DNA of 64,000 bases from Anaerolineae bacterium (GTDB taxonomy: Bacteria > Chloroflexota > Anaerolineae > Aggregatilineales > UBA3940), in contig JAFGOY010000033.1 in assembly GCA_016926255.1 (NCBI GenBank), positions 62,001-126,000 on the forward strand. The letters are read 5' to 3'. Made by a program: the position numbers and the translations under genes. Positions 46,518 through 49,989 of the stretch are shown piece by piece. The notes under the pieces are model-generated. The model saw only the letters and a program-made list of their open reading frames with translations. It was not told the DNA's origin and did no database searches. The first letter of the stretch is position 1. Each line of letters begins with the position of its first letter.

Positions 46518-46879
46518 GATGATAAATGAACTGCCGGGTAAGCCTACTGGATGTTGTTTCCCATGTCAATGCTCTTCGGCCTAAAACCCGGATTTCGTAT
46601 GGTGACTATCAACCTGAAAGGTGAAGTCATTCCACTCCTGGGAACACACCTCTTTTTAGCAGGTTATGAAATTGGCTGATCCTTGTGAAACTCATTGACT
46701 ATTTCGATCTCGTAAGGGGCAACCCTCGCGGTCGCCCAGGCTTTACAAAGCGATGTGGTAAAAGACACATGATTCATTAATAAGTCATTTATAGTTTGTG
46801 AACATCTCTTGGCTATTCTTTGGGCAAGTCTTGGCTGTACAGGCATGAGACATCAACAATCGTACAGAATGGAAATTCT
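46518..46879. other. Intergenic region upstream of the VTC-DUF4956-CotH operon
   Basis: A 362-base divergent region. A diverged family D repeat lies at 46711-46738 (CGTAAGGGGCAACCCTCGCG-type). No confident -35/-10 pair or gene was found. A TGGAA ribosome-binding-like site precedes the 46880 start. Confidence 0.5.
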
Positions 46880-47716
46880 ATGGTAACAGTGGATAGACAG
46901 CTAACAACACAACGTCAGCCTGCCAGCGTATTCGAGAATCCGGCATGGCGCACGAAGTATCTGGTCGATGGCTGCGACCCGATCTCTCTGTCCGAGATGG
47001 CCCGCGTGTCGCTTCTCGACCGGGTTGATACGAAGTATATCTTCGGGGTGAGCCAGCTCTATGAAGTATTACCTCGGCTTGCGGGGCACTATCGCGTATT
47101 GGAGATCGAGGGGATGAGCCTGAACCGGTATCAAACGGTCTATTTTGATACCTCCGATTTCTGGCTTTACCGGCAGCATCATAATGGTTCGAATACTCGT
47201 TACAAGGTTCGTACTCGCAGGTATGTCGATTCGGATTTGAACTTCTTCGAGATCAAGCATAAGACCGGGTTCCGGACGGTTAAAACGCGCTTCCAGATTC
47301 CAAAAATGAAGCTGGAACTGGATAGAGATGCCGATGAGTTTGTTGTTTCGCATACCCCCCTTAAAGGGGATCAATTGGAGCCAAAGCTGTGGAATCAATA
47401 TATGCGGACAACGCTCGTCAGCAAGCACCGCCAGGAGCGTCTGACCATTGATATAAATCTTGCCTTCGGCTGGGGAAATATGTGCATGGAACTGCCCGGT
47501 ATTGTCATTGCCGAAGTGAAGCAGGAACGCCTCTCGATGGACTCTGAATTCATCCAGCAGATGCGGGCGCTGGGTATCCACCCGACCTCCTTCAGCAAGT
47601 ATTGTATGGGAGCCTGTATGCTCTATGACGATCTGAAGAGCAACAACTTTAAACCAAATCTGCGGCAGGTGCAGAAAGTGTTACAAGGAGAATTAGTGCA
47701 TGACTTCGTTCATTGA
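46880..47716 (+). CDS. VTC-domain (polyphosphate-polymerase-like) protein
   Basis: A 278-residue protein with the VTC tunnel-fold domain, related to triphosphate tunnel enzymes and yeast polyphosphate polymerase. Diagnostic parts are LLDRVDTKYIF (44-55), the tunnel segments TVYFDTSDFWLYRQHHNG and RYKVRTRRYV, FFEIKHKT, and near the C-terminus IAEVKQER and FSKYCMGAC. It is cytoplasmic, with no TM. The start at 46880 is preferred over 46820 because it has a site at TGGAA. It is followed by DUF4956, overlapping by 17 bases. Whether it makes polyphosphate or another product is not known. Confidence 0.88.
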   Translation: MVTVDRQLTTQRQPASVFENPAWRTKYLVDGCDPISLSEMARVSLLDRVDTKYIFGVSQLYEVLPRLAGHYRVLEIEGMSLNRYQTVYFDTSDFWLYRQHHNGSNTRYKVRTRRYVDSDLNFFEIKHKTGFRTVKTRFQIPKMKLELDRDADEFVVSHTPLKGDQLEPKLWNQYMRTTLVSKHRQERLTIDINLAFGWGNMCMELPGIVIAEVKQERLSMDSEFIQQMRALGIHPTSFSKYCMGACMLYDDLKSNNFKPNLRQVQKVLQGELVHDFVH

Positions 47717-48335
47717 TCCACTGGTGAGGTTCGCGATCAACTTTATCGTTGTCTTTGTGATCGTGAGATTCATCTACTACCCGCAGCGGCGGGATAAAAG
47801 CTATGTCTTTACGTTCATCGCATTCAATACGATCATCTTCTTTGTGATGGGGTTGTTGAACAGCACCGATATCAGCATCGGGGTGGGATTTGGCCTGTTC
47901 GCCATTTTCTCTATCCTGCGCTACCGCACCGATACAATCCCGATCCGGGAGATGACCTACCTGTTCATTGTGACGGCGCTCCCGGTGCTCAATGCCGTCC
48001 TGCTTGACAATCAGCAGTTCGCAGAACTCGCTGTCACCAACCTCGTCGTGATCGGGGTGCTGTATGTGTTGGAGCGCGGCTGGGGATTCAAATATGAAAC
48101 CCGCAAAACGATCAACTACGAACGTATTGATATGATCCGCCCTGAGAATTGGCCACTTTTGCTTGAAGATTTACAGCAGCGTACCGGCCTGCCAATCCAG
48201 CGAATCGAGATCGGTAAGCTGAACTTCCTCCGCGATTCGGCAGTGATCCATATCTACTATGATGCGAGCCTGCTCGATTCCGATCAAGTCAGGTTTACGG
48301 CAAACGACAATGATGAGTATGTTGAAGATAAGTGA
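47700..48335 (+). CDS. DUF4956 membrane protein
   Basis: A 211-residue membrane protein of the DUF4956 family. About four transmembrane helices (residues 8-24, 35-52, 58-70, 85-135) precede a cytoplasmic domain (MIRPENWPLLLEDLQQRTGLP). The conserved GVGFGLFAIFSILRYRTDTIP segment is the family mark. The start overlaps the VTC gene end by 17 bases, so the two are tightly coupled. It probably forms a membrane partner for the VTC protein; the role is not established. Confidence 0.88.
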   Translation: MTSFIDPLVRFAINFIVVFVIVRFIYYPQRRDKSYVFTFIAFNTIIFFVMGLLNSTDISIGVGFGLFAIFSILRYRTDTIPIREMTYLFIVTALPVLNAVLLDNQQFAELAVTNLVVIGVLYVLERGWGFKYETRKTINYERIDMIRPENWPLLLEDLQQRTGLPIQRIEIGKLNFLRDSAVIHIYYDASLLDSDQVRFTANDNDEYVEDK

Positions 48336-48363
48336 CTCAAGGACTTTTGAGAAAGTAATCACT

Positions 48364-49989
48364 ATGGGAGTAAAGAAATCCTCTGGCCTGCTGTGGATCG
48401 TCGGTCTGGCTGTGATAATCACCCTGTCGGGTTGCAGTCAGGTGCAGGATATATCCGTTCAAACCGGGGCTGAGATACAGGAAGTTAGTGAAACAGTCGT
48501 TGTTCAAGCAGATACAGAACAGTCGGTGGACACATCAGATGAGACCGTCAGATCAGATGAATGGGACGACTATTCTCACGGGAAGTCCACCGAACCGGAT
48601 TACGATGTGGTCTTTCCTCAGGACGAGGTGAACTCTATCACCATTGCTATTAGTCCGGAGAACTGGCAGTTGATGCAGGATAACCTGATCGAGCTTATAG
48701 GCGAATTTGGAACCCGTCAGGGTGGCGGCGGTAGGCCCGGTCAGGGTGTCGCTGGTGGCGAAAGGCCGGAGGGTGAACCGCCCGAAGGTTTTGAACCTCC
48801 CGCTGATGGAGAGGGTATGGGTGGGAGACCGGATGGAGCTGGTGGGCCGGGCGGTGGTGGGCTTGATATGCTTGCTGAAAATCCCATCTGGGTGACCGCC
48901 GACATTGAGTTTGACGGCCAATCCTGGGCGAACGTGGGAATGCGCTTCAAGGGCAATTCTAGCCTGACCGGTGCCTGGGGCAGCGGCATCCTCAAGATGG
49001 GTTTTAAACTGGATTTCGATGAGTTTGAAGATGACTACCCGGAAATTGAGGATCAGCGCTTCTATGGCTTCCAACAGTTGAGTTTTTCCAGCAATTTCAA
49101 TGACTCCTCACTGCTGTGGGAGAAGGTTGCCGCCGATATTTTCCGCGAGGCGGGTGTGCCGTCGGCGAATACCGCGTTCTATGCCGTTTACATTGATTAT
49201 GGCGAAGGCCCGGTCTACTTTGGGTTGTATACAGTCCTTGAAATGATTGATGATACTGTCATTGAAACCCAGTTCGACGATGATAGTGGGAATGTCTACA
49301 AGCCGGAGGGCAATGCCGCTTCCTTTGCCGAAGGCACCTATGATGAGACGGACTTCGATAAAGAAACCAATCAGGACGAAGCCGATTACAGCGATGTTCT
49401 CGCGCTCTATGAAGCACTGAATGCAGATACCCGTACCACCGATCCGGAAACGTGGCGCAGCGACCTGGAAGCCGTGTTCGACGTTGATGATTTTCTGAAC
49501 TGGCTGGCGGTCAATTCCATCATTCAGAACTGGGATACCTATGGACAGATGGCCCACAACTACTATCTCTACAATGATCCTGCAACAGGGCAGTTGACCT
49601 GGATGCCCTGGGATAACAACGAGGCATTGACTGATCGTGACGGTGGTAGAGGCGGACGGGAGAACGCTGGTTCCTCCTCTCTTGATCAGGATGATGTGGG
49701 TGAAAACTGGCCCCTGATCCGCTATCTGCTCGATGATCCGGTCTATCATGAACGCTATGTTGGATATGTAGAGAACACGATCACTAGTGTTTTTGTGCCG
49801 GACGATATGGTCGAGCGATACACCGCGCTCCACGATATGATCGCTCCGTATGTGATTGGCGAAAATGGCGAAATTGATGGGTATACCTATCTCACCACCG
49901 AAGATGAATTCGATACCGCGCTGGCCGAGTTGATTGACCACGTCTACAGCCGTTATGAGGTAGCCCAGGAGTATCTCGACACCCAATAA
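48364..49989 (+). CDS. CotH-family kinase-like lipoprotein
   Basis: A 541-residue extracytoplasmic protein with a signal peptide and lipobox LSGC (Cys24). The CotH domain (about 85-500) has RFKGNSS (194-200), the Lys-containing KMGFKLDF (211-218), FGLYTVLE (286-293), NWDTYGQMAHNYY (389-401) and the DFG-like PWDNNEA (415-421). A Gly/Pro/Glu-rich insertion of about 50 residues (116-166) splits the N-lobe. CotH proteins in Bacillus spores phosphorylate coat proteins. It follows DUF4956 by 28 bases. The start at 48364 is chosen for the signal peptide; upstream ATGs would mask it. Confidence 0.88.
   Translation: MGVKKSSGLLWIVGLAVIITLSGCSQVQDISVQTGAEIQEVSETVVVQADTEQSVDTSDETVRSDEWDDYSHGKSTEPDYDVVFPQDEVNSITIAISPENWQLMQDNLIELIGEFGTRQGGGGRPGQGVAGGERPEGEPPEGFEPPADGEGMGGRPDGAGGPGGGGLDMLAENPIWVTADIEFDGQSWANVGMRFKGNSSLTGAWGSGILKMGFKLDFDEFEDDYPEIEDQRFYGFQQLSFSSNFNDSSLLWEKVAADIFREAGVPSANTAFYAVYIDYGEGPVYFGLYTVLEMIDDTVIETQFDDDSGNVYKPEGNAASFAEGTYDETDFDKETNQDEADYSDVLALYEALNADTRTTDPETWRSDLEAVFDVDDFLNWLAVNSIIQNWDTYGQMAHNYYLYNDPATGQLTWMPWDNNEALTDRDGGRGGRENAGSSSLDQDDVGENWPLIRYLLDDPVYHERYVGYVENTITSVFVPDDMVERYTALHDMIAPYVIGENGEIDGYTYLTTEDEFDTALAELIDHVYSRYEVAQEYLDTQ

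Follow-up and report, generated by a model that had tools for sequence, protein, structure and literature searches.

The yeast VTC complex (Vtc4/Vtc3/Vtc1; PDB 3g3r, 7ytj and 8i6v) is a polyphosphate polymerase coupled to vacuolar import, in which the chain is translocated, as it is made, through a channel with basic residues along its walls (PMC9911596). VTC-type polymerases are treated as eukaryotic in the accessible portions of reviews. In Gram-positive bacteria, the genes cotH-PPP-DUF4956(-DUF4832) have been described as accessory to Pel clusters and left without explanation, although a regulatory role was suggested for CotH (PMC7112168), and NELoc-2 of Clostridium perfringens carries the gene combination (PMC2879425). 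The accessible text of these two papers gives no mechanism for the set and makes no connection between DUF4956 and MgtC. The first-pass annotation of the DNA analysed here had assigned the operon an unknown biological role; the gene set itself had already been published. A search of literature outside subscription found no account of a stand-alone modular system, of the MgtC link or of a synthase-exporter reading.

The locus lies in a 64,000-nucleotide stretch of an Anaerolineae bacterium genome (contig JAFGOY010000033.1), referred to here as the window. Three genes on the same strand encode a VTC-domain protein, a DUF4956 membrane protein and a CotH-family lipoprotein (Table 1), each with a Pfam score well over the curated cut-off. 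The open frames and Pfam matches bear out the order and spacing given in the first-pass annotation, with the start of CotH 28 nt past DUF4956. The VTC frame opens with an ATG, and a longer frame from a TTG at 46820 is possible. The overlap of the VTC and DUF4956 frames suggests that the two are translationally coupled. The genes on either side of the trio, uvrA and a minus-strand ABC1-type kinase-like gene, belong to other functions.

Table 1. Features of the VTC, DUF4956 and CotH operon, in window positions.
Feature	Position	Strand	Length	Basis
VTC-domain protein	46880..47716	+	278 aa	Pfam PF09359 E 8.4e-31, AlphaFold2/Foldseek, tunnel residues
DUF4956 membrane protein	47700..48335	+	211 aa	Pfam PF16316 E 5.6e-56
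VTC/DUF4956 reading-frame overlap, 17 nt	47700..47716	+		open frames
CotH-family kinase-like lipoprotein	48364..49989	+	541 aa from ATG 48364	Pfam PF08757 E 2.7e-65

The VTC and DUF4956 genes form a conserved module. Conserved co-occurrence had been set beforehand as a test of the grouping, and it is near perfect in Chloroflexota. In an even sample of 151 genomes from the phylum, DUF4956 is found in 15, VTC in 16 and both in 14 (Fisher p 9e-17, or ~3e-11 by genus, tests that correct only partly for relatedness). All nine genomes with CotH also carry VTC and DUF4956. Three of 14 named control genomes have DUF4956, and the same three have VTC: Bacteroides, Corynebacterium glutamicum and Methanosarcina acetivorans (Bacteroidota, Actinomycetota and Archaea). 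A scan of GTDB genomes, run on a narrower alignment because the wide one was too diverse and thus leaning to close relatives, found VTC immediately before DUF4956 in 77 of 80 further loci; two of the remaining three are cut by a contig end. The two frames overlap in 67 of the 74 loci in which this could be measured, most commonly by 17 nt (20/74), as in the window. Co-occurrence and the conserved overlap together rule out chance neighbours. Solitary VTC genes also occur, one in genome G123 and two in G065.

The co-occurrence recurs in Deinococcota, Bacillota, Pseudomonadota and Acidobacteriota, and the linkage evidence from other phyla comes from plasmid records and the three control genomes rather than from random sampling. 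A Deinococcus plasmid record carries CotH-VTC-DUF4956. Rhizobiales plasmid records carry DUF4956-VTC with a phytase-like protein and, once, a PHO4 phosphate transporter, and Planococcus and Pseudobutyrivibrio plasmid loci carry the module with CotH and adjoining glycosyltransferases. On a Pseudoalteromonas plasmid (L139:5147-7525), a gene for a phosphate-selective Porin_O_P protein lies directly 3' of DUF4956; VTC is present there only as a C-terminal remnant, upstream of DUF4956 and beside a lamin-tail lipoprotein fragment. No VTC homologue was found in phage records. Genes for an OmpR-type response regulator and a histidine kinase adjoin the module in 27 of the 80 loci (e.g. L049, L082, L091 and L101), most regularly where the module carries Cthe_2159. 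None lie beside the operon in the window.

The secreted partner of the module can be exchanged. CotH stands beside it in 34 of the 80 loci and Cthe_2159, a polyanion-binding beta-helix family with cellulose and acid sugars (polygalacturonate) as known ligands, in 27; the two never occur together, and some loci showed no partner. In three Bryobacterales (L133:7596-10385, L136 and L137), the third slot holds a phosphotransferase-like protein with a PPDK_N domain, EF-hands and a signal-like N-terminus. A simple motif search found a signal-like N-terminus in 33 of 34 CotH and 26 of 27 Cthe_2159 proteins, and most have a lipobox. A tree built from concatenated VTC and DUF4956 sequences implies a minimum of eight switches between CotH and Cthe_2159 among 58 loci. 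The closest relative of the window module, L058 (70% identity over VTC and DUF4956, 99% support), holds Cthe_2159 in the slot that CotH occupies in the window. VTC and DUF4956 are therefore the core of the system, to which different secreted partners can be joined.

The VTC protein is, on its predicted structure, a cytosolic tunnel-fold enzyme resembling polyphosphate polymerases. It consists of the tunnel domain only, and SPX and C-terminal transmembrane domains are absent. Its AlphaFold2 model (pLDDT 92.5) has yeast Vtc4 (3g3r) as its best PDB match (Foldseek E 1e-11), with a VIA Z of 17.0 to Vtc4 that is level with the tunnel domains of Vtc2 and Vtc3. The equivalents of Vtc4 R196, K200, R266, K281, K294, R361, R373, E426, K428, S457 and K458 are kept in 45 or 46 of 46 VTC proteins, and so is the lysine that replaces R264 in the bacterial proteins. 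Nearly all of the Vtc4 tunnel residues are also kept in ten divergent VTCs from other phyla or distant Chloroflexota. Hydrolytic tunnel enzymes carry the glutamates of an acidic patch (PMC4641920). When three of the four patch positions were matched to the bacterial proteins, the R196 and K428 equivalents proved basic, as in Vtc4, whereas the T198 position holds aspartate or glutamate, as in the hydrolytic enzymes. Since two patch positions are basic and one is still acidic, the protein is probably, though not certainly, a polymerase.

DUF4956 is a family with, to our knowledge, no known function, and MgtC is a virulence factor whose mechanism is unclear. Judged by profile comparison, DUF4956 belongs to the MgtC/SapB superfamily, a membership proposed here for the first time. 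A diverse DUF4956 set aligned with MgtC over 127 columns in hhalign (95.6%, E 1.3e-8); the reversed profile gave E 0.07, and column-shuffled controls 0.18 or worse. A larger set made up mostly of close relatives of the window protein gave 86% and E 4.9e-6. The window protein itself has no match to PF02308 at E values up to 10. One Chloroflexota protein (L050) exceeds the Pfam cut-offs of both families, and another (L051) exceeds that of MgtC and matches DUF4956 below the cut-off. In both of these loci (L050:6088-9142 and L051:7810-10943), the MgtC/DUF4956-like gene has no VTC gene beside it and is followed by two thymidylate-kinase-like P-loop genes, the second of which is fused to a Ppx/GppA domain III in L051; perhaps a different phosphate enzyme is paired here with the same membrane protein.

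The AlphaFold2 model of DUF4956 (pLDDT 85.7) has five predicted helices and a C-terminal beta-alpha-beta-beta domain, which is predicted to be ACT/ferredoxin-like and has weak Foldseek matches to the ACT domains of aspartate kinases (E about 1). If that domain is cytosolic, the conserved arginines R23, R74, R76 and R83 would lie at cytosolic helix ends by the positive-inside rule. A search of the PDB with the whole model gave no relevant match and none proving a channel. The search bears neither for nor against the relation to MgtC because no full-length MgtC structure was among the matches. An annotation as a "tubulin/FtsZ GTPase", which by gene order appears to refer to DUF4956 in the accessible part of an earlier report (PMC2879425), finds no support, given the five predicted helices and the MgtC homology.

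The N-terminus of the window CotH, MGVKKSSGLLWIVGLAVIITLSGC, is a signal peptide with the lipobox LSGC, in agreement with its earlier description as a secreted lipoprotein. The protein matches the Bacillus cereus CotH structure 5jd9 (E 7e-15). The catalytic residues named in the first-pass annotation are present, both in the VTC tunnel and in CotH (K196, D391 and D417, numbered from ATG 48364), so that neither enzyme is catalytically dead in sequence. D391, D417 and E293 occur in 32 of 32 CotH proteins and K196 in 30 of 32. The retained residues and the match to the solved B. cereus protein make kinase activity plausible. Its lipoprotein signal makes a spore-coat role unlikely. The N-terminal half of CotH also contains a Gly/Pro-rich low-complexity insert (48679-48880), which is present in all relatives compared, hardly conserved in sequence and poor in Ser/Thr.

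A possible explanation of these findings, which we tentatively favour, is that the two genes of the core act in bacteria as the VTC machine does in yeast, together with an effector on the cell surface. VTC would polymerise the gamma-phosphates of ATP into polyphosphate in the cytosol. DUF4956 would bind VTC through its predicted ACT-like domain on the cytosolic side and pass the lengthening anionic chain into the membrane or through it, by means of conserved arginines that ring the cytosolic opening. The polymer would then reach the cell surface, where the secreted partner encoded in the operon would use or hold it. In the window, the CotH lipoprotein may phosphorylate a protein or glycan of the cell surface, and polyphosphate could be the donor, as ATP is scarce outside the cell; in sister loci, the Cthe_2159 beta-helix would bind the polymer. 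In favour of this explanation are the linkage of VTC and DUF4956, the fold and tunnel residues that VTC has in common with Vtc4, the coupling of synthesis to translocation in yeast, the signal-like N-termini of the partners, the phosphate-related neighbours (PHO4, phytase-like, Porin_O_P and PPDK_N proteins) and the gene content of the window genome (G000, an assembly ~96% complete), which has two PPK2 genes and no match to PPK1 or the Ppx family. Counting against it are the loci without a partner, the solitary VTC genes, the lack of a PDB match to the full DUF4956 model that would prove a channel, the known ligands of Cthe_2159, which are cellulose and acid sugars and not polyphosphate, and the D/E at the T198 position, by which the acidic patch appears only partly replaced. 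We know of no MgtC protein that conducts polyphosphate. The fuller proposal, that VTC and an MgtC-like DUF4956 form a synthase-exporter supplying polyphosphate as phosphoryl donor to an extracellular kinase, whose place other secreted proteins that handle phosphate or bind polyanions could take, is improbable as a whole.

Other explanations fit parts of the same evidence. The trio might modify or regulate a Pel-like exopolysaccharide, CotH phosphorylating matrix or synthase proteins or sugars, Cthe_2159 binding acidic polysaccharide and VTC/DUF4956 supplying or sensing phosphate. Such a matrix role would account for the affinity of Cthe_2159 for cellulose and polygalacturonate, for the glycosyltransferases in the Pseudobutyrivibrio and Planococcus plasmid loci and for the position of cotH, PPP and DUF4956 next to pelDEADAFG in streptococci, clostridia and bifidobacteria, as given in the accessible part of the report on Pel clusters (PMC7112168). 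It is nevertheless unlikely: the window genome has no PelG, which rules out dependence on Pel there, no Pel genes are among the immediate neighbours of the trio that were examined, and the window has no glycan genes next to the trio (in the Chloroflexota loci, neighbours were clustered and annotated in part). To a similar degree, it is doubtful that the system is a regulator of phosphate or magnesium homeostasis, in which DUF4956 would act like MgtC on Mg2+/phosphate balance or transport, with VTC as a nucleotide- or polyphosphate-handling partner, the surface protein as sensor or scavenger and a two-component system reading the signal. The MgtC homology, the predicted ACT-like domain as a typical regulatory fold, the regulator and kinase genes beside 27 of 80 loci and the PHO4, Porin_O_P and phytase-like neighbours all suit a regulator, whereas VTC keeps the catalytic tunnel residues of an active polymerase, beyond the need of a pure regulator, and the window operon is without adjoining two-component genes.

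The phosphate-uptake proteins among the neighbours (Porin_O_P, phytase-like and PHO4) would also be expected if transport ran inwards, with VTC a tri- or polyphosphate hydrolase and DUF4956 importing external polyphosphate for breakdown; phosphate porins and surface partners of phytase- or kinase-like type would take part as well. The acidic residue that the bacterial VTCs share with tunnel hydrolases where Vtc4 has T198 points the same way. Against this stand the R196 and K428 equivalents, which are basic as in Vtc4 and not glutamate, and a fold nearest to Vtc4/Vtc2, and the hydrolase reading is the least probable of those considered here. The operon had originally been proposed to form a cell-surface polyphosphate or phosphorylation system, and this may still be its best reading, with the amendment that CotH is one of several interchangeable partners and not a fixed part.

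Should the synthase-exporter explanation be true, bacteria of several phyla would couple polyphosphate synthesis to export by means of an MgtC-like protein. This would suggest a route by which polyphosphate could reach bacterial surfaces, as well as a purpose for secreted CotH kinases and what might fuel them. It would also place MgtC in a family with testable biochemistry. The swapping of partners makes the VTC and DUF4956 core a clear target for reconstitution.

The system shares features with each of the described systems and differs from all of them. Like the CotH spore-coat kinases of Bacillus (PDB 5jd9), the window CotH has the fold family and catalytic residues; unlike them, it is a secreted lipoprotein in a non-spore context with a large Gly/Pro-rich insert. 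DUF4956 resembles MgtC/SapB (PF02308) in its alignable membrane core, in the several DUF4956-like proteins that match both families and perhaps in its C-terminal domain, which is predicted to be ACT-like. It differs in that the window protein does not match the MgtC model, in its gene context and in its motif (FGLFAIFS..RYRT versus GIGFLGAG...TTAA in MgtC). The same three families are adjacent in the accessory genes of Pel clusters (PMC7112168) and in NELoc-2 (PMC2879425), to judge from the accessible parts of both sources, whereas the window module is stand-alone, with no Pel genes among the immediate neighbours examined and no PelG in the genome, and its CotH can be replaced by Cthe_2159. 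With the yeast VTC complex it shares a cytosolic tunnel domain of the same predicted fold, with the same catalytic residues, and a tie to a membrane protein whose basic residues are conserved. It differs in that the bacterial VTC has neither SPX nor a three-helix membrane domain at its C-terminus; the membrane component is instead DUF4956, a distinct protein belonging to a different family, and a secreted partner has been added.
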